From Bryoerythrophyllum caledonicum (lineage: Eukaryota; Streptophyta; Bryopsida; Pottiales; Pottiaceae), in assembly GCA_963971425.1 (NCBI GenBank), contig OZ020516.1:34460199-34524198 (forward strand): a DNA stretch of 64,000 nucleotides. Reading direction: 5' to 3'. The notes beneath the pieces were generated by a model. It saw only the letters and a list, made by a program, of their open reading frames with translations, was not told the origin of the DNA and made no database searches. Below, in pieces: positions 5,930-63,530 of the stretch. Numbering within the stretch: the first letter of the stretch is position 1; each line of letters begins with the position of its first letter. A program made the position numbers and the translations under genes.

Positions 5930-7150
5930 ATGTACATAGACTCATTTATTGAGGCGTTATACACATAGTGATCAAAATCTTGTCCACTTTCCACGAGCAG
6001 CCAAAACAGTTGCAATTCGATCTGGCATGCTAGCATACAATCTCTCACATTGCTCTGTAGTGATCGTCTTATAACTCTCCTCCGCACGCTCCCATAATTG
6101 CAAAAGACTTACAGGAGGAGTTAGATAGGAATTCAAACAATGTTTGAGGATTGCCCAAACATGTTTTATGGGATTTAGGTCTGCGGATTGAGCTGGCCAC
6201 TCTAGAACAAAGAATGGTTGCTCTAAGAACCATTTTTGAACAATCTTTGCATTATGTATAGGAGCATTATCATGCTGGAAAATGACGTTATCGAGGTTCA
6301 AGTATCCTAATCTCTCTAAACTCAAGTACAAATCTCCATGCAAGATTGAAATATAGTCCTTCGCATTTAAACGCCCATCCACCTTTTGCAAATCAATTAG
6401 ATCTCTTGCTGTCATACAACTCCATAGCATCAAAGACCCTCCACCATGCTTCACTATTTGCTTCTCCGCACGATCAGGCAAGCTTTTTTTGTCATTAACC
6501 CAACATCAAGTCCTCCCATCTGAATTGAAACAATTTATCTTCGTTTCATCACTGAATACAACTCTCTTCCAATCCTCTACTGTCCACTCTTTATGAATTC
6601 CTGCAAATTGTAGCCTCTCTCGTACATTTTTCTGTAACAAACAATGCTTAGGAATCTTCTCACAAGCACTCAATCTAGCAGGTCTCAAAGCAGACCACAA
6701 AGTGTTATCACAAAAGCCCACTTCTCTACCCTCTCTCAACACTTTTGCTGCCTGTTCTGTAGTTTCTAACCCTCCAATTATGACCAAGCGCTTTGCATGT
6801 CGTCTCTCTGAAGTGCTAATAATCTTTAGAGCACCTCATTTTGGCAATTCTAAGTTACTACAATGTTTCTTTCACTCTATTCACCGTGCTTTGTGAGAAA
6901 CCCAAAGACTTTGCAACCACTCTTATATTCTAACCTTTCATCAAAAGAGCAACAATATCTCTCACTTTGTCTCCTGAAATTGGCTTCATCACACCAATCT
7001 TAATTCCTATTCTCCACAATATATTCTACAAAAAGGAAGAGAAGAGCAATCACAAAAAATTTCATCAAAAAATACAAGTTTCTATCTATTCTACACTCAT
7101 CTGAAGTTGCTCCAGAAGCCACCTCAAAAAATGAGTCTATGAGGGTACAT
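5930..7150 (-). mobile_element. Tc1-like element with terminal inverted repeats, inactive transposase
   Basis: The ends are inverted copies of CATAGACTCATTTATTGAGG (left, from about 5935) and of the matching right end (CCTCAAAAAATGAGTC, 7112-7127, continuing to 7144), each next to TA. The transposase reads on the minus strand from about 6990 to 5972. Recognisable blocks are VVFSDETKINCFNSDGRTW with the first Asp, VIFQHDNAPIHNAK with the second Asp, and SADLNPIKHVW, where the expected Glu (IEHVW) is Lys. The C-terminus is ATVLAARGKWTRF. The N-terminal third is broken by stops and frame changes. Loss of the third catalytic residue makes the copy inactive. Confidence 0.8.
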
Positions 7151-28691: not shown

Positions 28692-31491
28692 AAACCTTGT
28701 ACAATAGGGTGACATTCAAATTGGCCGTTTAGTAGTTCCAGGGATAGTGTCCTACACTGCTGCCAACTTTGACACCCTCCCCAAAGCTGAGAAATTGTTA
28801 TTTTACCATGAAAATTTGGGGACAACATCATCTTTATGTTGAAAACATGCATACCAAATTTCAAGTTGAGGAGACGTATACAAAAAAACTTATGCAAGAT
28901 CTACCAACATGGGATAGCTGTGAGAAAAGTGTCACAACTGCCAACTTTGACACCCTCCCAAGAATTGAGGAATTTTTTTTTGCCCATGAAATTTTTGGAG
29001 CAAAAACATTTTTATGTTGTTTGCATGTGTGGAAAATTTCAAGTCCAAAAGACCCATACAAAAAATAATATTCCAAATCTACCAACATGTGTAGTTTTGA
29101 GAAACAAAGGGGAAAACCATTTTACTACTTCCAACTTTGACGCCCTCCTTAGGATTGAATTTTTGTTGATACATAATGAAATTTTTGGCACAAGATCATC
29201 TCTACGCTGGTAACATGTGAGATAAATTTCAAAGCCAAAAGATGTACACAAAAAAGTTATTCCATATCTACCAACGTGTATGTCCTCCATTAGCGTCAAT
29301 CACTGCTAGTAACCTAGAGGGCATAGAATGACATAGTTGAAGGAGCTTTGTACCATTGACTAACTTCCACTCTCTTTCAAGAACTACCTTCAACACATCT
29401 ATGCTTCTAGGGCATTGTTTGCCATGTTGCACAACATCTTTTAACATCCTCCAAACGTTCTCGATTGGATTGAGATCGAGAGAGTTTGCAGGCCAATTGA
29501 GCTTTTCGAGAAGGTGGCTTTGTCTCCATTCTTCACATATTTTGCTCCTATGGACGGGTGCCCCATCTTCCATAAGCACTCCTTGTGGAATTTGACCCAT
29601 GAAATGAACCAATTTGGCATCGTAAACCACTTCTATAAAATCCTTAGCAGAACGCTGACCTTTAGGCATAAAGACAAGTTCTGACTTTTGTCCTCCGGCA
29701 AATGCGCCCCAAATCATTAAAGAAGTCCTTCCACTTTTAAAAGTAGGAGCTAGACAACTTGATGAATAACGCTCGTATGCACTTCTCCAAACATGAATTT
29801 GCCGAGAATTTTTTCCAATTTCAAAAGTAGATTCATGTGTCCAAACAACACGCTCCCACTCTTTTGCACTCCATCCACGGTACTTCTGAGCAAAAGCTAA
29901 TCGTTGAGACATGTGACGAGGTGTCAAAAAAGGTTTTTTGACTGCAATTCGACTAAAAATGTCATTTTTATGTAAGACCCTTTGAATAGTACGTCTACAC
30001 ACTTGAGTAGGACATGCATTGGTAATCTTTGAGAGTGAAGAGCAACGATGAATTTTTGAGTAATGCACAATACTACGAACATCTCTAGTACTAAGCTTTT
30101 TAGCGTGACTTCCACCGCAAGGTTTGCACTTGTAGGTTCCATCTTCTCTAAATGTTTTTACTAACCTTGTAACTGTTCTAATAGGAACTCCAATAGTAGC
30201 TGTAATTTGAACTCCTGTAAATCCTCCCTCACTCAAACCTATGATGCGAGCATGAATTTCATCTGAAATTGCCATCATAAACTTATAGAGTGCGTGATGC
30301 TAGCTACAGCAGTAGAGTAGGGGTTAGAGCAGAGCAAAGGGGAGAGAAGGGGGCCAAGGGACTAGAGCAAAGCAAAGGGGGTTGCAAGATTGACACGTGA
30401 CAATTGGCAGAGGAAGGAGAACAGGGCTGGAGCAGAGCAAGGGGGAGAGAAGGGAGCCAAGGCGCTGGAGCAGAGAGGAGAGAGAAGGGTCGCCAAAACA
30501 CAAGCCCATATGCATACATGAAAAGTCGTTTTGCTTTTAATCACTCATCATGTATGCCCAATGTGAATCAACACTCATGCATTCCACAATACAACACTCT
30601 CTGTTTTGATAATTGTCTCAACATTCAGTCTATCACAAATCACACACACCATTCCCTTTACATAGTGTTCAATAGATATTTAGAAGAAACAATTTGTCAT
30701 GTGTCTAATGCACACTTTATGGCCAAGTGGATTCCTCTGCATGGAACACCTCTTCACTTCTTCATTTAGATGTTATTGATCTTTTTTAAAAGCATTTATG
30801 TTTGGTGGCTTACTGACATGATTGAGTTCAATGAAAAAGCATGAGGTGTCAAAGATATTTTGGCATTTTCAATATGACCTTCAAATTGTTTATCATAGTT
30901 ACACATGTTGATGGATATGGAATAACTTTTTTTATGTATGTCTTTTGGCTTTGAAATTTATCCCACATGTTACCAGCGTAGAGATGATCTTGTGCCAAAA
31001 ATTTCATTATGTATCAACAAAAACTCAATCCTAAGGAGGGCGTCAAAGTTGGAAGTAGTAAAATGGTTTTCCCCTTTGTTTTTCAAAACTACACATGTTG
31101 GTAGATTTGGAATATTATTTTTTGTATGGGTCTTTTGGACTTGAAATTTTCCACACATGAAAACAACATAAAAGTGTTTTTGCTCCAAAAATTTCATGGG
31201 CAAAAAAAATTTCCTCAATTCTTGGGAGGGTGTCAAAGTTGGCAGTTGTGACACTTTTCTCACAGCTATCCCATGTTGGTAGATCTTGCATAAGTTTTTT
31301 TGTATAAGTCTCCTCGACTTGAAATTTGGTATGCATGTTTTCAACATAAAGATGATGCTGTCCCCAAATTTTCATGGTAAAATAACAATTTCTCAGCTTT
31401 GGGGAGGGTGTCAAAGTTGGCAGCAGTGTAGGACACTATCCCTGGAACTACTAAACGGCCAATTTGAATGTCACCCTATTGTACAAGGTTT
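28692..31491 (-). mobile_element. Tc1-like element with about 590-bp composite terminal inverted repeats
   Basis: The left arm 28692-29279 and right arm 30900-31491 are near-perfect reverse complements, far longer than typical Tc1 ends and recalling IR/DR-type Tc1 elements. The outermost sequence is AAACCTTGTACAATAGGGTG at both ends. Each arm consists of about three diverged units roughly 190 bases long, each with CCAACTTTGACACCCTCC, a CCATGAAA..TTTGG block and a CTACCAAC(A/G)TG block. The interior carries one transposase gene. Upstream of its start, 30320-30500 holds a direct repeat of a GGAGCAGAGCAA / GGGAGAGAAGG motif. The arms differ at few positions, which suggests fairly recent insertion or gene conversion between them. 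Confidence 0.9.
29268..30278 (-). CDS. Full-length Tc1-like (DD34E) transposase with substituted first catalytic residue
   Basis: An uninterrupted 336-codon reading frame that would bind the element's terminal repeats and cut and paste the DNA. N-terminal helix-turn-helix domains (residues about 1-110) include GFTGVQITATIGVPIRTVTR and a second homeodomain-like part around VCRRTIQRVLH. The catalytic core has VVWTHESTFEIG, where the usual Asp of the TDE/SDE motif is His, then MIWGAFAGG, GVLMEDGAPVHRSK with the second Asp, and LDLNPIENVW with Glu. Exactly 34 residues lie between the last Asp and the Glu, giving the DD34E signature. The C-terminus is AVIDANGGHTRW and runs slightly into the left terminal repeat. 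Loss of the first Asp predicts no catalysis despite the open frame; DNA binding could remain. Confidence 0.88.
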   Translation of the reverse strand: MMAISDEIHARIIGLSEGGFTGVQITATIGVPIRTVTRLVKTFREDGTYKCKPCGGSHAKKLSTRDVRSIVHYSKIHRCSSLSKITNACPTQVCRRTIQRVLHKNDIFSRIAVKKPFLTPRHMSQRLAFAQKYRGWSAKEWERVVWTHESTFEIGKNSRQIHVWRSAYERYSSSCLAPTFKSGRTSLMIWGAFAGGQKSELVFMPKGQRSAKDFIEVVYDAKLVHFMGQIPQGVLMEDGAPVHRSKICEEWRQSHLLEKLNWPANSLDLNPIENVWRMLKDVVQHGKQCPRSIDVLKVVLEREWKLVNGTKLLQLCHSMPSRLLAVIDANGGHTRW

Positions 31492-41914: not shown

Positions 41915-43380
41915 TTCGTGGTGGAACGAACAGACTCTTTATTCACTCCAGCCCCCTTCAAGGACTGGAGTTCTTCTTCTCCTTGTTCGTACTCAGTTTT
42001 GGCAGTCACCCCACATTAGGGGCTAACCTTAACCCTTTAGCGCCCAGGAAGCCTGAAATGGGACTCCGGAGGTGCTCAAACTCAATTTGCATGAAATCCA
42101 TGAGGAACTAGGCTTTGAAAGACGAGGTTCAGATTTGCGCACTTGTTACACAAACACTCTCCAACAATCAGATCATGATTTGGATTTATAGAACTCTTGG
42201 AAAAGCTAGGAATACAACACAAAATACACCAAATACACTCAAATACAGTGACTACAGTGAATACTATGCCACATACTATGTTGTATTTTACACACATGCA
42301 CATTGATTTTGGTCTTATTTTTTGATTGAACTTGGTCTTTAAGACATTCTTCATTGTTTTGTGGTTGTTGATCTCTCTCCTCACATACGAACCATCCATT
42401 TTGATTCGTATAAGGTTGGAACATTTTTGTATACAACCAAGTAGAAAAAAGAAAAAAAATCACCAATAATTGGGTATAAATATTTTCTTCACATATAATA
42501 TGTCAATGCGAAGCTATCAACCTAGTGCACATGTGAATTGCTCTAATTCATAGTAAAAAAAATTCTTGCAAGACTCTATTGGTAGTTAAAGTAGTACACC
42601 CTCCAAATTCCACAGTTTTCACTACCAATATACGGAACTTTAAACACTATAATCTATTCCATCAACGGTTGAATGTTGTGCAAAATTTCCCCAAAGTTGA
42701 GATCATGGGTTAAGTTCAATTTTGTAAGGTTAGATATTAATATTAGTCATTGTATTTCCATCAATTCCGGTTCAAAGAAAAAAATCACCAGAATTCTTGG
42801 TTTTTCCAGAAACATCCCTGGGCGCTAAAGGGTTAACCTTTGGTCGATGCACATGATGTAGAATTTGGTTTAGAACTTTGTTTAGAATTTGGTTCAGAAT
42901 TTGGTTCATCCCGAACTTAAGGTTGGATGACCTATAACCACCAACTTAAGCTTGCTGAACTATTTATAGCGTTTGTATACGTGGTAAGACATTTTTTGGG
43001 AATTCAAAATAGGATTTCATGAATATTGCAATTGTTGTGACCATTTATTTCTTCATATTGAAATTGCTACAAATTTTCAAAGTGGATAGTAAGCCATGAC
43101 CCATTCCTCGACATACACAACTCTCTATTTCCACACTAAGTTGTACTAAAAACCACTTCTGCATTGACTAAAAACCGGCATCTTTGAACCAATCATGAAC
43201 TGACACCCAATCATATATGACTTCCTAAAACTTCGGAAATGGGGTGGATTTGTGGTGGTTTTGGTACACTTTTGCTTATCCGTTGTGGGGTTCGTGGTGG
43301 TTATGGGTCATCCAACCTTACCTGAAACCTGCTTTCTGGGTGCCTATGCAGGGAGCACTTGACAAATTCAGTCACGCTTA
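41915..43380. other. Intergenic, nothing recognised
   Basis: AT-rich sequence with short direct repeats (AGAATTTGGTT, 42850-42905). The phrase GCGCC..AGGG near 42820 also occurs near 42040. No coding region or RNA supported. Confidence 0.4.
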
Positions 43381-43732
43381 GGGGCGTTTCACACTAAGCC
43401 CAAGGGCCGAACTCCATTGAAGACCAAACTATGCCGAGGGGCCGAGTTTTGGAGTTGTAAAAAATTATTAAAATTATTTTAATGAGAAAATGTTCGGCCC
43501 CTCGGCAAGAGTTTGGGTTTCTATTCTTGTTGGACCCAAACTCTCCTCGAGGGGCCGAACTATTGGCGCCAAAATTCTCAAAAAGTGTTGCCATGTAAGC
43601 ATTTTGGTGCCCTTCGGCCCTTGGCCCTTGGCCCCTAGTGTGAAGGCCCACGGGCCGATTTTCAACTCTAGGCCAATCAAATTGCTAGAATTGCTCGGCC
43701 CCTCGAGCTCGGCCCCTAGTGTGAAACCCCCC
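43381..43732. mobile_element. MITE, GGG...TTCACAC family, copy 2, with TTA target duplication
   Basis: The 352-bp element begins GGGGCGTTTCACACTA and ends with the complement (TAGTGTGAAACCCCCC). It is flanked on both sides by TTA (43378-43380 and 43733-43735). Inside, GGCCGA and GGGGCCGA words recur on both strands. The 3-bp TTA duplication suggests PIF/Harbinger mobilisation. Confidence 0.82.
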
Positions 43733-44423
43733 TTATAGTGCGCTGCATGATATTTTTATCAGGAGCTATAAACCTCCAGCAACCAGCTATGGCTTCTCAT
43801 CTCTCTTGCTTCGGGCGCATTAGTTGTGGATCATCGGGAGAGGATTTTGATGAGAGGATTTTGAGGAGAGAGAAGATGTGCGATCTGTGAATTGCTTGCT
43901 CCTGTCTTCTTCTTGGAGCGGTGAATTGCGTGAGCTCTTGCTGTGAGTAAAGTATAGGGTGAGGCCCCCGTGGGAGGGCCTCACCCGGCGTAACGCCCTG
44001 AAACTTTTGAAAAGGTGAAACACAGTTTTCGGCACCTGCCCGGGCAAAATGCCGTGGCGGGCGAAATGTGGAAAGCCCGGTGTATGGGGCGTTACGGATT
44101 ATAAGGCCCGCCAAAATGAATGGGCAAAAGTCTTCGACGGGCGTTACGCTTCTCACAGTTTGCATTTTCGAAAGCAGTTTTCTGGCATTGGATCACCCGG
44201 AGATCATTCTAGTGAGAGCTGCTGATGATTTGATTGGTTGGATCGGTTGTCGGGAGAGGATTTTGTTGAGAGCGACGATGCGCAATCTGTGAATTGCTTT
44301 GTTCTGTGAATTGCGTGAGTTTCTCGTGGTGATGCGGTGTTGATGGATTTGCTTCTTGGTTAGGTCTTGTTAGTTTGATCTGGAGCCAGACGCGCGATCC
44401 GGAGCTGCAATTCGCCTGCCGCG
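43733..44423 (+). promoter_or_regulatory. Upstream region of the rvt-like gene with a diverged internal duplication and hairpins
   Basis: Two diverged copies of a segment lie at about 43825-43935 and 44235-44320; both contain CGGGAGAGGATTTTG, ATCTGTGAATTGCTT and GTGAATTGCGTGAG. Between them is a GC-rich insert of about 200 bases with a strong hairpin (GTGAGGCCCCCGTGGGAGGG and onward, 43960-43987) and words AACGCCC and GGGCGTTACG in inverted orientation. Similar GC-rich words occur near 52257-52370. The region presumably holds the promoter and leader of the gene starting at 44424. Confidence 0.5.
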
Positions 44424-47057
44424 ATGTCGTCCTCGTTTTCACAAACGCTGAATTCGATTACGGCCACGAAGCTGCGGGAGATTTCGAAGAAGCTGGCCAA
44501 GTTTACAACGCACAGGGAGAGTGTTCTGTCGTCGGTCGGTGCGGCCGGGAGCGCGAGGGAGAGAGTTCGATTGCTCGTAGATGGCATCGAGGCTTGGCTC
44601 AGCGTCGGGGTTACGTCGAGTGACTTGAATGCGCGAGACGATCTCTCGAATGCGAAGACGTTTCTTGCGCAGGCGAAGCGCGATCCCTGCATTGGCGAGG
44701 CGACGTTTCGGGAGTGGGAGGCGGATTTCGCGACCTATCTGGACTCGGAGATGGCCAAGTATGAGTACGCAGAGCTTTTCGGACGGCTGCTGAGCGAGTG
44801 GACTGCGAGCCCGAGCACCATGACGGAGGTAGAGGAGACGTTTGAGAGAGTTGGAAGGAAGGAGATGCATGAGCAGCGCGCCATGTTCGAGTCGCTTGTG
44901 TTTAGTGTGAACGAGACCGACGCGGCAGCCATCGTCGCCTACCTTGACGATCTTTTTTCGTCGAAGACTGCGAAGGGAATGCTGGAATCTATGCGAAAAG
45001 GTATGAAGGAGTTTGGTGAGATGCTGCGGCGCACCAAGCTCACTGTGCATGATCTTGAATTGGCGATCTCCTCTCTCTTGGTCGCGGACCTTTTGTCGAA
45101 CGAGAAGCAGCACACCTTGAAGGAGTTCACGCAGAACCCTACAGTGCTTGCCGAGGTCACTGATGTGTTGAACATGCATCTGGCGTCAATCACGTCGTGG
45201 TCTTGGAGTCCGGACGGCAGCGCCATTTCCGTGGAGATGCGGCGGCAGCTCAACGGCAAGTACAGGGTGTATATGGACGAGGAGATTCTGCAGGCCGTCT
45301 TCCTGCACTGGATCGGGCTTAAATGGGCGGCGGAGTTCAAGTCCCAGTTCAAGAGCTTCTGCGAGCCGAGATCTAGAGCGTGGAAGAAGCCTGGGACGCC
45401 GCTCTCCAAGGACGAGAATGAGAGGCGGGAGTATTTCCTGGGAGAGGATCCTCGAGCTACGACGGCAGACATATCAGAACGATTACTGCAGACGATTGAT
45501 TGGCGGAGACAAGCGGATCACGAGCGGTTGTTCTTCATGAGCAAGCTGCCGGATAGCCTTGAGACCGGGGGAGCTGCGTATGACGCTGAAGAGACGACGA
45601 AACCTGGCGAGGCGACTGCGGTGGCGATCATGCAATCGCTGCTGCACATTTTGACCACGGAGTGCCTCTTCAACACCACTCTGTACAACGAGTTCACCGT
45701 TGTGCGCTCCGACTTCGCCTGGTTCGGTCCGAGCTTGCCTCACACCTCCATTATTACTGCTCTGCGCTTCTTTGGCGTTCCTGAGGATTGGCTCACCTTC
45801 TTCCAGAAATTCCTCTCGGCGCCGCTCAAGTTTGTGTCCGACGGGCCATCGGCTGTGACTAAAATTCGGAAACGGGGAATTCCGATGAGCCACAGCCTGG
45901 GGGATTGCTTTGGAGAGGTTCTGCTTTTCTGCATGGATTATGCTGTGAACCAGAGAGCAGACGGGCTGCTTCTGTACCGTATACATGACGATTTCTGGTT
46001 CTGGAACAGAGATGCCATGGTGTGCGTGAAAGCTTGGCAAGCAATGAGCACCTTCACTCGTCTTGTCGGGTTGGATTTCAACCACGAGAAGACGGGGTCT
46101 ATGTCTGTAGGGCGACCGCTGCATCCAGATCTTCCTAAAGGGAGCATCAAGTGGGGTTTCCTGAAGTTCGAAGAGCCTGGCCAGTTCGTGATCGATCAAG
46201 CGGAGGTCAATGTCCACATTGAGGAGCTGAAGCTGCAACTGAAAGCCTGTGAGCATTCTGTGTTTGCTTGGGTTCAAGCGTACAACAAGTACCTCGCCTC
46301 CTTCTTCGTCAACAACTTCGGCTCCCCTCCTGCGCAGTGCTTCGGTCAGAGGCATGTGGACATGGTCATCGACACGCTCCAGCGCATCCACCTCGCCCTC
46401 TTCCCGGAACATGGAGGGTCGGTCATTCAACACCTTGCGCATGTGATCCAGGAACGTTTCGGCGTCAGCGATATTCCTCCCGGATGGTTCCTGTGGCCCA
46501 TGGCCATGGGTGGATTGGAGGTGAAATCTCCTCTGATCCCGCAGTTTGCCATCCGCGAGCACCTTTGTGTTGATCCTGCCCAGAAGATTAAGGAGGCAGT
46601 TGAGAACGAGAAGGACACCTACGCTAGGTTGCAGGAGGAGTGGGAGAGCGGCATCACCACACATCCCAGCACTTCCAATCAGAAACTCCTCCTGGAGCCC
46701 TTCCTTTCGTATGAGCAGTATGCGCTGCACCGGGAGCAGCGTATCGAGCTATGGCAGTGTGTCTATGGCGAGCTCTTAAAAGTGCCACACGAATCTGACG
46801 GTTTTGATACAGCGCTGAGCATAGATGTACCATCGTACCTTGTGAAGGCGCTGCAAAACCTGCCTTCGGACCCAGCGGGCGTCGAAGGAATCCCCAGGAA
46901 CTGGTATGATATGACTATTTATTGGCGGTGGGTTGTTGCGTGCTATGGCAAAGGCATGATCAAGAAGTGGGGCGGCTTGGAGGTGGTAAGACCTGAAAGC
47001 TTGCCTCTCGGCATGACACAGGTTTGGAAGAGCAGGAAGATGAGGTGGGAGCAGTAA
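44424..47057 (+). CDS. rvt: Intact rvt-like reverse-transcriptase-related cellular gene
   Basis: An uninterrupted, intronless 877-codon gene. It matches the rvt class, single-copy RT-related cellular genes known from fungi, some animals, plants, protists and bacteria; the Neurospora protein polymerises NTPs in vitro. Residues 1-400 are helical and charged with no known enzyme motif. The polymerase core follows: SDFAWFGPSLPH (motif A, D430), RKRGIPMSHSLGD (motif B, 482-494), LLLYRIHDDFWFW (motif C, D522 and D523) and GLDFNHEKTGS (motif D, about 549-559). Residues 600-877 form a long C-terminal extension rich in Trp and charged residues. No endonuclease, integrase, gag, RNase H or terminal repeats flank it. 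GC-rich third positions contrast with the AT-rich flanks, and with the lack of introns suggest transfer or retrocopying, possibly from a fungus. The start is the first ATG of the frame. Its host role is unknown. Confidence 0.85.
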   Translation: MSSSFSQTLNSITATKLREISKKLAKFTTHRESVLSSVGAAGSARERVRLLVDGIEAWLSVGVTSSDLNARDDLSNAKTFLAQAKRDPCIGEATFREWEADFATYLDSEMAKYEYAELFGRLLSEWTASPSTMTEVEETFERVGRKEMHEQRAMFESLVFSVNETDAAAIVAYLDDLFSSKTAKGMLESMRKGMKEFGEMLRRTKLTVHDLELAISSLLVADLLSNEKQHTLKEFTQNPTVLAEVTDVLNMHLASITSWSWSPDGSAISVEMRRQLNGKYRVYMDEEILQAVFLHWIGLKWAAEFKSQFKSFCEPRSRAWKKPGTPLSKDENERREYFLGEDPRATTADISERLLQTIDWRRQADHERLFFMSKLPDSLETGGAAYDAEETTKPGEATAVAIMQSLLHILTTECLFNTTLYNEFTVVRSDFAWFGPSLPHTSIITALRFFGVPEDWLTFFQKFLSAPLKFVSDGPSAVTKIRKRGIPMSHSLGDCFGEVLLFCMDYAVNQRADGLLLYRIHDDFWFWNRDAMVCVKAWQAMSTFTRLVGLDFNHEKTGSMSVGRPLHPDLPKGSIKWGFLKFEEPGQFVIDQAEVNVHIEELKLQLKACEHSVFAWVQAYNKYLASFFVNNFGSPPAQCFGQRHVDMVIDTLQRIHLALFPEHGGSVIQHLAHVIQERFGVSDIPPGWFLWPMAMGGLEVKSPLIPQFAIREHLCVDPAQKIKEAVENEKDTYARLQEEWESGITTHPSTSNQKLLLEPFLSYEQYALHREQRIELWQCVYGELLKVPHESDGFDTALSIDVPSYLVKALQNLPSDPAGVEGIPRNWYDMTIYWRWVVACYGKGMIKKWGGLEVVRPESLPLGMTQVWKSRKMRWEQ

Positions 47058-47348
47058 CCCCGAGCAGATCCTTACGCAGATGTAAGGGTACTGAGGAAGC
47101 TTAGGATAGTAGCTTGCAGATGATGCGAATCGAACTGCGAAATCGGAAGAAACCGGGTGCTGTATAGAAATTGTGTACAATAAGAGGCCGTTCATGCTGC
47201 AGAGTTAACTTACTTCTCAAACCTTGGTTGAAAGCGATTCTGTTGACTGCCAATTTCGTAATGATAAGAGTGGAGGCCCTCAACCAACGTTGTGTGGCAA
47301 TCAGCCTGTTCTTAAATCACTTGATGAGTTGGTGATGAGACTTGTTAC
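47058..47348. other. Presumed 3' region of the rvt-like gene
   Basis: Short non-coding stretch after the TAA at 47055-47057. No terminal repeat or mobile element boundary is seen before the TIR element that begins at 47349. Confidence 0.4.
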
Positions 47349-48050
47349 TACACTATTGATGTTCATTAGTGTTCGCAACACTATTTACGAACTTAAACTC
47401 TAAATGTCAATTACCCTACTAATGTAACAGCATTAAATGTCAATTTAAACACTAATTGTCAATTTCTGTAACTTTTGCCCTTATTACATTTTAACATATT
47501 GACATTTAGTGTTGCTTTATGTAACAATTTCATATGCCACATTTTATTGCAAGTCACCCAAATCTCGCCACATGTCAAAAGCAAACCTTCCATGTTGGGC
47601 TGGTTTTTTGAAGGTTGGATTTTCAAATAATGATTTCCGGGGCAATTTTTGTCCAATTTGAGAGTTTATGGTGCATGTCTAAACTGATTTGAAAAGACGC
47701 TTCCAATGGCACCTTACCCATCTTCAAATTTGTCTTAAATAGAAAGTTATAGCGAATATTTTGGGGCAGATTTCTTGAGTTTTGGTTGAAAGTTTGAGGA
47801 GGCATATCTTTATCAATTTCGCACCAATTCTATCAAGTGAGGTGACCAGCTTATGTGTTTTTTCAAGGAAATTCCATCGGTATATGGTGCATCTTCTAAT
47901 TTGTCGTGATGCAAAAGTTATGAGCCATTTTGTTAGGCTGATTTTTTGACATTAAACACTAAATGTAAACAAATTGGCATTTAGTGAAAGTCAGGTCATA
48001 GGGGTAGTTACACTATTGGTGCCATAACACTAATGAACATCATTAGTGTA
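47349..48050. mobile_element. MITE-like element with TACACTA ends, 702 bp
   Basis: The ends are imperfect inverted repeats: TACACTATTGATGTTCATTA at 47349 and the complement of TACACTAATGATGTTCATTA ending at 48050. A second inverted block lies just inside (GGGGTAGTTACACTATTGG near 48000). The interior has the short word AAATGTCAATT several times and no transposase. It shares the TACACTA tip with the 220-bp MITEs at 38.3 and 39.1 kb, so it may be mobilised by the same transposase family. Confidence 0.75.
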
Positions 48051-48177
48051 GTGGTACGCATTGTTTCCGTTGGGTCTATCATTAGCTCCCCGATCTAATT
48101 TGATGCATTTTTTCATGGGGACAATGTATAGGAAGACGCCCGCCCGAGAGGGCCTCCCGATTTGGGAGATACCCACC

Positions 48178-48275
48178 TACTGCCCGATCTCATGCCCCTG
48201 CTGCCCGATCGCTTGCCCCTGCTACCTGATTGCCTGCCCCTGTTGCCGGATTGCCTGCCCCTAATGCCCGATTGG
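48178..48275. repeat. 21-bp tandem repeat
   Basis: About four to five units, each containing TGCCCGAT or TGCCTGATT and ending TTGCCCC or CTGCCCC. The units are diverged. In one frame it reads as a Pro/Cys-rich repeat, but no gene is evident. Confidence 0.8.
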
Positions 48276-48654
48276 CTACCTCACAAACATTTAACTTGAG
48301 CAAGTGGCTGAAAACTGAGCGAGTGTGAGACCGAGCGAGTATGAGACCAAATTCAGTGTTTTTATTATAGTTTTCTTGAACCACTGTATGAGGGAAATGC
48401 GGAGTTTGAATTTTAGTTTTGGTAACTGTAGAGACAAGTAGAACACAGAGAAATTAAAATTAGTAGCACAAATAGAAATGTTTAACCAACTTTGACACAT
48501 GGAAATGTTGGTAGCCTGCACACCAAAATCTAGTAGCACAAATTGGGAGCGCAGTTGTCCATCGTTGCTGCTATCTAGTTAAAAACCTGGCTATATTTTG
48601 GAAGTTGTTTAGAGATAAATAAATTCAAGTTTGCAGTGCTACTTTGTGCAGAGT

Positions 48655-49070
48655 CTCATGATGCAGATTCTATTGAACACTGTATTATACCACGATTAAC
48701 GCTTGTTAGCCCCAACTTTTCCGTCACCTCCGACACGCTCGTTGCAGGCGGCAGGCCTTGCTTGTTCTCGAACACCATCACCTTCACCCGCTCAAGCTCC
48801 GCCTCGCCTAGCAGCCTCTATAGCCCGTCGCACGCCTCTGCGAGCCCGTCACCGTCGTTGCTGTCCACCACGAGATCAGCCTCTGCGCGGTGCTCTTGGA
48901 GTACTTCCACAACGGCCGGATCCTGTCCTGGACGCCACGATCGCACACCGTGAATATCACATCGCGGTACTGGATGGACTCCACGTTGAGCTCGATTGTG
49001 CGCCTCATCTCCCCCAGCTTCAATTTGTACAACAACAACGTCTTCCCTACTAAGTGGCACAAGAACAATT
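48655..49070 (-). pseudogene. ARF-type small GTPase pseudogene
   Basis: The minus strand reads as a diverged ADP-ribosylation factor with no introns: [15 protein letters not shown] (end of the P-loop), [16 protein letters not shown] (family: GFNVETVEYKNISFTV), QDRIRPLWK (family: QDKIRPLWR), then after a frame change VVDSNDGDG (family: VVDSNDRER). It continues with [20 protein letters not shown] (family: LVFANKQD) and TEKLGLTSVNRGI. The N-terminal myristoylation segment and most of the P-loop are missing, and QDR lies in RGVQDR instead of VGGQDK. The uninterrupted exon structure and 5' truncation fit a decayed retrocopy, though no poly-A tail was recognised. Confidence 0.82.
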
Positions 49071-59331: not shown

Positions 59332-62300
59332 TCAGCTGGAGTCAGTATCGTCAGAAAAACTATCACTACGCTCCGAGCTACTAACGTTATCCTCCCCATC
59401 TATGAACGGACATGTAGTAACTCTACGTGAGACTACCATTTGAAGACGTTGAGGGGAATGTTGAAATGCCATGGCGTCTGTAATCTGGGCATCCCAGGGA
59501 TTCAAATGGAATCGTCGTGTGGGGCTCTTCACCTCCAACAACAATGAAGACAACACTCCAACATGAGTCCTATTCAATGATGCCATCAACGACGAAGGCC
59601 AACTGCACAAATTAAAGTCTCGTTAAGAATTTAAGCTTGAGACAAGCTAGAACTATAAACCGCATTCCAAAACTGGAACCGAATCAGGGTAGGACTTACT
59701 CACAACGTCTCTTGGGGACGGTCTTCACCTCTGGCTCGTTGTCATCAACCTCCAAGGGGCGCTTGCGAGAGCCCTCTGCCACCACCGGTGGCGGTGCTGA
59801 CTCGACCTCAACAATGTTAGGGACCAAAGGAAGAAGGACTTCTTCCACCAACTCTCGGTCCTCCTCCAGTGCCAAAATGTGCCGCTTTAACGCCTTGCAG
59901 GCCTTAATAGACGCCCCTTCATTAAAAAAAAATCATACAATGTTAGCATTAGAAAGCGAAAGTAAAACAAAAGAATTTTGTAATGGAATGAACTAACCAG
60001 TAGATGCTGTGAGATCTAGGACAATGTCCTCCTCTTGTGTGCACAGATCAATCAGAGCCTCCATGAGGTTTGTAGACTTTTCTCGCGCACCACGCCATGG
60101 TACGTCGCTATCCGCCCTCATAGTGAGCGTCTCTTGAGTAATAAGATTGGTCATGTGACCATCTGAAGACAGGTGAATCCCGTCTCTTTGTAGCTCCATC
60201 GTATCAAAGAATGAGAATGGAACCGCGGGATCCAGTTTCCTGACAAAGCACTTCACAAGGAAGCACTTGTGAGTGCGCTCAGGGTGGCCATCGCGGAAAA
60301 GTGGTAGCCCGTTGATGGCAAACACTTTGTCTCCTCGACAAATCCCGCCCAATCGGCCCAGGCTGAAAGTTCATTGGAGATGAACTTCGAATCCGGGTAG
60401 AACACGATAAGCGACGCCCCGTCACAAAGCAACGCCCCAACCATCTCAAAGGCCCGGTAAATCCAATGGGATTCTTTCTTCCCTCCGTCTGATAACCGGG
60501 TTGGAAGCTTGTTCCAATTCGGTACGTCGATGCCGCCATTAATGTCGGGAACCGGTAAATCCTCTGGTACGTCGAACAGTACCATATCTGCCAAACCTAG
60601 AGCGCAATCCAGAGCCTCATGTCGCCGATGCCGTGAGCCCGAGTGCTCCTTCAAAAACTTGCGAAGCTCCTTCCAAGCCTCTGGTTCGTCATCCTCCACA
60701 ACGACGCAGTCAAATAGAGACATAATGGAGAGGGCACTCTCACACATCACCTTCATAGCAGCAGAAGACTGAGGAAGATCAAATGACGGAATCGAATACA
60801 CCGTCTGAGAGGGCTTCACATCGAAGGTAGAAGAACGGCTGCTAGCTGAGGGTAAAATGCCCATCGTCAAAGTCACCGCAGGAGGGACTGCAAATCCTCC
60901 AAATCCCCCCAATTGACTAAATAGCTTCTGGGGCCCTTCCTTCGCCACCAACGCCGCGAACTCCTTGTACTTCTCCTTCGCCTCTTTCTTCTCCTTCTTC
61001 GAACTCTCCTTCTCCAGCCTAGCAGCCTCCCTCTCTTGTTCCTTGATTACTACCTTAGCCGCTTTCTCAGCAACCTTGGCTTTGGCCTTCTCGGATTGCT
61101 CCTCAGACGCTCCAAATGGAGCCGCCAACAAGGGAAGGACGTTGTCAACCACAGGAGGAACCGCAACGGACTCGCAGGCCACTCGAAGCTGGACCTCGTC
61201 TCCAGGTGTGGGATCCACCTCACGCATCTCCAAGTACAAGGGACATTGGAGGAGGTGGTGCACGAAAAACCGACGCCGCTGAGTATCTGTGAAGATACAG
61301 TCTGGAGCCGAAGTATCTATCCACTTTGTGAAGCGGATGGGTAGGTCTCCGGCTAACAAGGATCCATGGGCCACGAGCACCCTCCAAAAATACCGCATCA
61401 CTGCTCGCTTCAGAGCCTTCTCGCAACCGTCCTGCGCCATAAACTCCTCGCCCTTCGTGTAAGAGCCCCCCTTCCCAATGTAAGTAGAGAACACCTTAGT
61501 CCACATCGTCATGCTCTTTGCCTCAATCCATTTTCCAATGGCGAGAACGGGATTTGGTAGCCCTTCAATCTTAAGGACAATGTTGTCCTCAAGGAGAATC
61601 TCCGCGTAGAGCTTCTCAGACTCTTCCTCAAGCTATAAAACAAAATCCACATAGTTAGGAATTCATCATAGTACAATCATATAAAAAATCTGTGAATGTC
61701 AAGAAAGAGTGCACCTTACCCCAACCCAAAACACTGCCTTGTCAATCCAGCCACGAAGAACCTTATCTGACGCTGGCGAGGCAGGGAAGTTATACTCCAT
61801 CCTGCTGCTCTTGCTCATGTTCTACCACCTGCACCAGCGCGACTTGAATTTTGCAGCTACCCTAGCAGTGGCAATGAGTTGGAGTTTCTCGGGAGTCATC
61901 TCGGGCCGCACCTGGTAGACATCAAAGTGGCGATTCACCTAAATCACAATATCAACCATTAGAATGGAATTTACAATGTCATGAGTTAGGAAATCAATAT
62001 GGATGTTGTATAAATAAAGAAAATTTATCCTACCTCTTTGAAGAAATCCTCCCCGTTAGCCGGGTTGGCAATTGCCAACATCCGAGTGAGCATGGTCTGG
62101 CACGTCGTCTTCTTCTTTTGCACAGCTTCAGTGCAACGGCTCACCAACTCTACGGCACTTCCACGCCGATTTTCACTAACACCCGTGACCAAGGTGTCCT
62201 TGAACTTTTGAATCTGCTCCTCTTGAACAACAATCAGGTCCCGCTGTAGCCAACATAAGGACGTGGAAAGTTATAAAATTTAATGAAGGAATATTAAAAA

Positions 62301-63263
62301 TAGATATAAGCCAAGTGCTAGCTGGTCTCACACAATCATCACGTACCTCAAACATGAGCTTTACAAATGCTTCCAAGGTCATGTGATACCACTTTCGTTG
62401 TCCCTTCCTTGACCACTCAAGGACACTGACTTCGTAGTCTTCATCGCTGATGAGCCCCTTCAACTGCTCAAACTCTAAGAGACCGAAATGCTAAACACGC
62501 TCGACGTCGTGTGTCATGTGTTGCACGACGTGGTCAGCTTCTTTTTGCCTACGACAAAAGAATGTTACATTTTAGAAAATTTAAGTCCAATAGTATAAGA
62601 AACTGAAACAAACGAAGTTACGAGTATCTTAGTTCATGCATATCTGTTCAAGTCGGTCATCACGTTGAGCAAGATGTGACGGTTCTCGATAGTCGGCTCG
62701 ATAACCACGGCTCGTACTGGCACGTGAAAGGCAACATCGGATGGGTGCAGTTGGGAAATCGCCTCGGTCCAAGCCATGTGGCGATGATTACCATCCCACA
62801 CAAAGAAGAACTTCTCCGAATACGCCGAGAACTCCGAACGAGTCTTCAACAACTCCTCGAACTTCCGGTCCTCTTCTACCCAAAGCTCGGACCACGTTGA
62901 CCTGTCTGTTGGTTGCACCTGCTTCTTCACAAGGGAGAAACTCTTCACTGAAACGTAAAAACATGTAGAACCAGGCCGATATCCGTTGACGAACTCCCCC
63001 TTCAATTTCTCAACATCGCTCCGAAGAGGTAATCTAACCTCAGTCATGGGCACCATCCTACAGAGCGGAATGAGGAGATCACCTGCGATAGAGCAAATAC
63101 TGCTCTGTAGGATGTCGTAAGAGGTTCCACGGATGGACCTCTGCAAAGACTGAAGTGTTCGAGCAAGCCCATGCTCATCAACAAGTTCGTCCACGCTAGC
63201 GTCGTCCTCCACAATCTCAAGGTCCTCACCCGAAGAATTCGCCCTAGGTTCCAAAGCCTCAAC
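59332..63263 (-). pseudogene. ParB-like domain fused to a beta-class DNA methyltransferase-like domain, interrupted
   Basis: A multi-exon minus-strand gene. The first visible exon (63263 to about 62664; earlier exons may lie outside) has an acidic start, then FFVWDGNHRHMAW (62765-62803), which fits the ParB-type nuclease/partition motif D-G-x-H-R. Middle exons (62548-62350, about 62243-62036, 61938-61720, 61633 onward) are helical. A Lys/Glu-rich coiled coil follows (61110-60960, KEKKEAKEKYKEFAALVAK). The methyltransferase-like part has ADMVLFDVPED where motif IV (DPPY) is expected, GALLCDGASLIVFYPDSKF, KCFLVKCFVRKL and VLDLTASTGASIKACKALKR (motif I, split by an intron at 59997). IV before I is the beta-class order. 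A basic KRR and an acidic Ser/Asp tail end it (59604-59332). At least three interruptions suggest a decaying copy; an assembly or annotation artefact is possible. The DPPY-to-DVPE change suggests altered or lost catalysis. Confidence 0.65.
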
Positions 63264-63530
63264 CTGCAACCGTCATTCATTATAAACTAAAGTAAGATAC
63301 TCAGACCTATTAAACAATAAAATGAAATAAACAAAATACTAAAACTAGAAATCCATGGGCCCCAGTCCATCCCACAGCTCACCTCACAAACACAAGCCAC
63401 CCAAACCCCACCCCACGACCTCTCATGCACTCACTGACCACTCCCACATATTGCACATCCCGACACACACGCTCTAAGTGTGATGACTTAACTGAACGTC
63501 CTAACCAACAAACCAGGTGGAAAAATCAAC
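63264..63530. other. Region upstream of the ParB-methyltransferase exons
   Basis: Probably an intron or the promoter of the fusion gene. A CA-rich stretch at 63360-63480 contains the first copy of a direct repeat (CCACCCCACGACCTCTCATG, from about 63410). Confidence 0.45.

Follow-up and report, generated by a model that had tools for sequence, protein, structure and literature searches.

A single open reading frame of 877 codons in the moss Bryoerythrophyllum caledonicum raises the question of what kind of polymerase a land plant encodes there, from where the gene was obtained and what it may do for its host. A preliminary description of the DNA, made from the letters alone, had proposed an intact, intronless gene of the rvt class of reverse transcriptase (RT)-related genes, perhaps of fungal origin, and had regarded it as a strong candidate for an undescribed system. 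These proposals fare differently when the gene is compared with its relatives.

The reading frame and its surroundings

The window, by which we mean the whole 64,000-nucleotide stretch that was analysed, comprises bases 34,460,199–34,524,198 of a contig of 38,440,945 bases, and the genome totals 437,360,962 bases. Within it the frame occupies 44424–47057 on the + strand, running from ATG to stop as 877 codons plus the stop codon; the list of open reading frames gives zero internal stops and an intron is not needed for the full-length frame, in agreement with the preliminary description. The nearest upstream in-frame stop lies 45 bases 5′ of the ATG, and the start of the protein, MSSSFSQTLNSIT, lines up with the starts of its relatives in the 12 alignment rows inspected. 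A second copy was sought in the window and 100 kb of flanking DNA (164 kb in all) and none was found at E≤0.01, so that the many dispersed copies considered in the preliminary description are not seen in the 164 kb checked.

The third codon positions of the gene have a GC content of 0.697 against 0.437 for the flanks, as might be expected if fungal DNA had been misassembled into the moss genome or contaminated it. However, the gene is embedded in a contig of 38.4 Mb, and a Dof zinc-finger gene is present in the left flank (L050:7376-8311, E 7.1e-33) about 66 kb away; Dof genes are not known outside plants. Contamination is therefore very improbable. Moreover, the nearest named relatives among the matches listed are not fungal but moss proteins, whose contigs are 29 and 17 Mb long, and the attribution of the gene to the plant lineage stands.

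An antisense open frame of 421 codons is found within the gene. A frame as long appeared in 90 of 500 synonymous-codon shuffles, so codon usage explains its length, no separate gene is required and this candidate was rejected.

Several other features of the window were recorded. A 54-nt imperfect direct repeat (43852–43905 and 44254–44307, 83% alike and 402 bases apart) lies upstream of the gene, in what is presumed to be its promoter or 5′ leader. About 290 bp after the stop codon begins a 706-bp stretch (47347–48052) with 27-nt terminal inverted repeats that are 96% complementary; by its sequence it looks like a non-autonomous DNA transposon, and a search of the window for its ends, with up to 3 mismatches, returned only its own two ends. 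Tc1/mariner-type transposase frames are present on the − strand at 29268–30278 (HTH_Tnp_Tc3_2, HTH_23 and DDE_3) and at 5972–6481 (DDE_3). Two long frames, 60253–61512 and 62634–63269 (−), have no Pfam match; the former has 12 relatives, every one on unnamed contigs, and perhaps represents a moss-specific family. In the left flank, a low-complexity repeat (L049:2077-4033) keeps all three frames of one strand open and by eye is proline-/serine-rich. Rfam gave no match at the gathering score within the window.

Class and conserved parts of the polymerase

Relatives were sought among 5.8 billion proteins, of which the 8000 candidates sharing most words were scored; 208 of these are homologues at E≤1e-3, and the identities given here come from the best 120 of the 208. 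Among these matches, the closest named proteins are from the mosses Ceratodon purpureus (KC19_1G316800, 75%, and M758_9G065900, 67%) and Physcomitrium patens (61%). Next among the matches listed are fungi of the Discinaceae, Tuberaceae and Morchellaceae at 57–46% identity, namely Maublancomyces gigas (57%), Tuber magnatum and Morchella sextelata (47%) and Choiromyces venosus (46%), followed by Ascobolus immersus, Aspergillus, Penicillium and others at about 40%. A Philodina roseola protein (UniRef G3KGX1), named reverse transcriptase-like in UniRef and which we take to be the rotifer RVT, is 39% identical over 100% of the query, with the same motifs and with both ends aligned. The moss gene differs from this eukaryotic rvt in its plant host, its Pezizales-type sequence and a glycine at residue 493 that it shares with others of the moss clade.

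Profile comparisons lead to the same class. The PADLOC profile RT_UG37 matches residues 11–716 of the moss protein (profile positions 8–668 of 778, E 2.7e-78, 262 bits) as well as all 24 of the family members scanned. Other RT models are weaker: Pfam RVT_1 reaches E 0.014, under its curated cut-off, and a group II intron RT model weakly matches 18 of the 24 family members (best E 6.6e-9), the moss window protein not being among them. For the latter protein there was no match in NCBIfam and nothing better than E 0.2 in PHROGs. Because of the full-length RVT homology, the RT_UG37 match to all 24 members and the weakness of other RT models, the gene is, on sequence grounds, an rvt, as the preliminary description had held. 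Since the profile match is nearly full-length, UG37 may in turn be the bacterial arm of rvt; this comparison with bacteria was made via the profile alone.

The rvt genes are non-mobile cellular genes related to those of reverse transcriptases, and the class was reportedly described by Gladyshev and Arkhipova in 2011 (PNAS). UniRef and NCBI already contain the Ceratodon and Physcomitrium copies, named there as hypothetical or as RT-domain proteins. The moss gene thus adds to a known class and is not an undescribed system, and here the preliminary description went too far. According to excerpts of one paper (PMC5718144), RVT is the sole RT group present in bacteria and eukaryotes alike, and its genes have a very long branch and a big loop 2a.

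RT-type palm motifs, a subthreshold RVT_1 score and the weak group II intron matches among the relatives could also be read as the remains of a retroelement, live or recently dead, such as a LINE, a group II intron or an LTR element. Against this, the Pfam scan detected no partner domain above its cut-off, with endonuclease, maturase, RNase H and gag all absent; a search of 42500–49000 for long terminal repeats gave none, the gene is single in 164 kb, and its full-length matches are to RVTs and RT_UG37, with none in NCBIfam. A mobile element was accordingly rejected, there being neither partner domain nor terminal repeat and the best matches being RVT and RT_UG37, and we give it almost no chance. 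The preliminary description had likewise seen no retroelement partners or repeats, and the LINE or group II intron RT that it had named as a competing best match gave way to RT_UG37.

When solved structures were searched with the family profile, one sequence fell below E 0.1. This is a bacterial RNA-dependent DNA polymerase represented by six PDB entries including 9ioa, which we take to be DRT9, and it matches with E 6.4e-6 over profile positions 488–575 (88 positions), or 1.4e-5 with a second profile. Motifs B to D are shared. The two nevertheless differ in length (499 versus 877 residues), the likeness lies within those roughly 88 positions, and a search with the single sequence gives E 1.4. 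The PADLOC Drt9 profile matches 19 of the 24 family members (best 8.6e-12), the moss window protein again not being among them.

Residue conservation was counted in an alignment of 56 rows. A conserved N-terminal segment (residues 1–59, 44424–44600, +) begins in register with its relatives and contains the nearly invariant L9, T13, K16 and L51. Residues 1–84 are without proline, and their helical periodicity is mixed and not decisive; in other RVTs an N-terminal coiled coil gives rise to multimers. The stretch before motif A (residues 300–425, 45321–45698, +) is 113–173 residues long in the 56 rows, with a median of 123. From these lengths and excerpts of PMC5718144 it is a candidate for the RVT insertion loop 2a region.

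The four polymerase motifs that had been recognised earlier, with all their catalytic aspartates, are borne out by the alignment, all on the + strand: motif A, SDFAWFG (45708–45728), with D430 at 45711–45713; motif B, RKRGIPMSHSLGD (45867–45905), with R482, G485, P487 and G493; motif C, YRIHDDFWFW (45975–46004), with Y518, R519 and the catalytic D522 and D523 at 45987–45992; and motif D, FNHEKTGS (46077–46100), with N553, K556 and G558. The aspartate of motif A and the DD pair of motif C that mark an RT palm are hence present (D430, D522 and D523). D430 is Asp in 54 of the 56 rows and Glu in 2, D522 is found in 56/56 and D523 in 55/56, while G485, P487, R519, N553, K556 and G558 are each 56/56. 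Ser stands at residue 493 of motif B (45900–45902) in at least 95% of the 47 non-moss rows, but the moss protein has Gly; in the moss clade as a whole, Gly occurs at this position in 6 of 9 rows.

The C-terminal region (46620–47054, +) extends from Y733 (46620–46622) through Y833 (46920–46922) to a conserved end, RWEQ, and is a candidate protein-priming region. Y833 and Y623 are Tyr in 56/56 rows and Y733 in 53/56. Y733 and Y833 belong to 8 tyrosines of the window protein that are Tyr in at least 48 of the 56 rows; with 8 similarly conserved, the choice of Y733 or Y833 as the priming residue is a guess.

Bacterial and viral relatives were also sought. A scan of proteins on genome contigs for a bacterial rvt outgroup gave 54 pattern matches, of which 0 were confirmed, and a degenerate motif-C pattern returned 29 stretches, none of which proved to be a relative when compared by profile (best E 0.023). 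With RT_UG37 at E≤1e-3, matches came from 83 of the 292 genomes in the phylum to which a Nostoc locus belongs, reaching at most 51.6 bits against the 262 of the moss protein and confined to parts of the RT core (profile positions 297–590); 3 of 14 control genomes matched as well. At the stricter E≤1e-25, none of 395 genomes from the phylum of a Flavihumibacter locus gave a match, a result that does not demonstrate absence, since no control genome matched at that threshold either. Among viral contigs, 0 of 34 pattern matches were confirmed as rvt, and plasmids and phages gave no match at E≤1e-3.

Origin and constraint

A quick tree was built from the window protein and 115 of the 120 best proteins (those of at least 840 aa); it flagged one doubtful join and three long rows, and later work used none of these. 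The larger of two careful trees contains 44 rows (43 of 177 rvt proteins plus the window), was inferred under a mixture model and was rooted on basidiomycete and rotifer rows, and the second contains the window and 21 named rows picked by the analyst. In the 44-row tree, the Tuberaceae, Morchellaceae, Discinaceae, unnamed rows and mosses form a clade of 24 with support 100/98. Inside it, support is 95/91 for the 20 rows without the Tuber group, 97/92 for the 18 that remain once the Morchella pair is set aside, 81/76 for the 16 that comprise the Maublancomyces group and mosses, and 98/97 for the mosses with one unnamed row. It is 100/100 for the nine moss-clade rows, of which the window and the named mosses make up four. 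The named-row tree joins Maublancomyces and moss at 95/93. The moss rvts thus nest among Tuberaceae, Morchellaceae and Discinaceae.

Approximately unbiased (AU) tests were performed with groups set once the quick tree had revealed the pattern. A grouping of the 15 Pezizales-side rows (4 named) to the exclusion of the moss was rejected at p 0.026, and at p 0.0043 when the neighbouring unnamed row was excluded along with the moss; for 28 Ascomycota-side rows grouped without the moss, rejection was at p 0.00073. With the named rows, Pezizales minus moss was rejected at p 0.038, and at p 0.0041 with Ascobolus added. Two of the five values (0.026 and 0.038) are modest. Together the trees suggest that mosses probably obtained rvt in the distant past from a fungal relative of the truffles and morels (Pezizales).

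It might instead be that rvt is an ancient, vertically inherited plant gene lost in most plants, its fungal look arising from sparse sampling and tree error. The distribution of rvt is patchy, according to excerpts of PMC3520738, and the two modest AU values leave some room for such a history. Ascobolus, too, is off its taxonomic place: although of the order Pezizales, it branches apart from the Pezizales-plus-moss clade in each of the two careful trees, and with other Ascomycota at 88/80 in the 44-row tree, so the Pezizales are not one clade in the rvt tree even with the mosses aside and the gene does not cleanly follow the species tree. However, the Ascomycota-side rows without moss were rejected (p 0.00073), as were the Pezizales plus Ascobolus without moss (p 0.0041). 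No end branch exceeds the long-branch limit in either careful tree, the long ones in the named-row tree being those of Ascobolus (1.16), Phlegmacium (1.14) and Coleophoma (1.11), and Ceratodon and Physcomitrium are the sole plants named among the matches listed (best 120 of 208). We consider vertical descent quite unlikely. Acquisition from fungi, put forward in the preliminary description, therefore finds support in the phylogeny (AU p 0.038 to 0.0007). The grounds given there, GC-rich codons and missing introns, are weak; the fungal and environmental relatives are also single proteins of similar length, so the missing introns do not point to a recent fungal source.

As Ceratodon (Dicranidae) and Physcomitrium (Funariidae) are both within the moss clade, the simplest reading of the tree is a single transfer predating their split, in which a Pezizales fungus would have passed rvt to an ancestor of Dicranidae and Funariidae mosses. 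A later duplication would have given rise to the two Ceratodon proteins, the window gene being of the KC19_1G316800 type. No published report of a fungal origin of moss rvt was found in a literature search that stopped short of the core rvt papers, and in a study of horizontal transfer in Physcomitrellopsis (PMC11228847) the word ‘transcriptase’ is absent from the main text.

Another gene seems to have taken a comparable route. According to excerpts of PMC12454661, mosses received FunNAS about 275 My ago, the donor being a Pezizomycete. FunNAS resembles the present case in its Pezizomycete-class donor and in overlapping moss recipient lineages (PMC12454661, excerpts), but its enzyme is unrelated to rvt. 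That the two genes were transferred in the same episode is speculation.

Once acquired, the gene appears to have been maintained. To assess constraint, we took the 90 columns with at least 95% conservation among 47 non-moss rows; the window protein departs in 4 of these, while the other rows of the moss clade, 8 in number, depart in 2 to 5. When eight non-moss rows were left out in turn, with 90 to 93 columns, seven showed 0, 0, 0, 1, 1, 2 and 2 departures and the rotifer 7 of 93, so that the window departs in more columns than 7 of the 8. In simulations of random substitution, 28 of 300 copies remained stop-free at 2% per base, 2/300 at 5% and 0/300 at 10%. The few changes in conserved columns, the rarity of stop-free copies at 5% substitution and the 75–61% identity among mosses argue for purifying selection on rvt across the moss lineage. 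The 4/90 departures, together with an end branch of 0.21 in the 44-row tree, about twice those of the two nearest rows (0.10 and 0.13), would be compatible with mild relaxation or some acceleration in the window copy.

A possible activity and its meaning

Protein priming by a bacterial RVT was reportedly described in a 2018 paper. Work on one bacterial RVT is also said to have found an N-terminal coiled coil, C-terminal tyrosines and a preference for dNTPs, where the preliminary description has rvt genes preferring NTPs. In Neurospora, according to excerpts of PMC3520738, RVT has terminal transferase activity and responds to the inhibition of protein synthesis.

By analogy, a mechanism may be proposed for the moss protein, most of which we infer: a stress-responsive addition of nucleotides without the usual primer-template. 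The N-terminal segment would hold RVT in oligomers, and the long loop before motif A would hinder the use of an ordinary primer-template. The palm (D430, D522 and D523) could then add short runs of nucleotides onto a tyrosine on the protein's own C-terminal side, for which Y833 and Y733 are putative candidates, or onto an existing 3′ end. Such addition, untemplated or protein-primed, would occur when protein synthesis is impaired. A moss rvt that is derived from Pezizales and has a stress-linked, nucleotide-adding mechanism of this kind is, taken jointly, the reading that we favour with reasonable confidence.

A different role is suggested by bacterial defence-associated RTs, some of which make repeat or homopolymer nucleic acid on infection, and the moss enzyme could be a defence polymerase of that sort. 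Its best profile, RT_UG37, is filed under DRT, its sole solved relative below E 0.1 is the bacterial polymerase described above (E 6.4e-6), and Drt9 matches 19/24 members with E down to 8.6e-12, the moss protein excepted. Among the papers listed by our literature search, however, none was on a defence role for UG37, and the response of Neurospora RVT, as excerpted in PMC3520738, is to protein-synthesis inhibition; we regard this role as unlikely. Equally doubtful is a broader proposal, in which a Pezizales-derived, protein-primed polymerase of the UG37/RVT class, brought in by a single ancient transfer and since duplicated in certain mosses, would still be active in stress or defence, making untemplated nucleic acid as a plant counterpart of the bacterial defence-associated RTs.

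Under the favoured reading of stress-linked nucleotide addition, our first guess at the benefit to the moss is the tagging or modification of a pool of RNA or protein when translation is under stress, and defence is the second. A constrained moss copy with a relative in the tractable Physcomitrium patens turns the purpose of RVT into a question that can be tested by knockout. If the transfer is true, rvt would be a further Pezizomycete gene kept by mosses, after FunNAS, and it could then be asked whether the two arrived in a shared episode.
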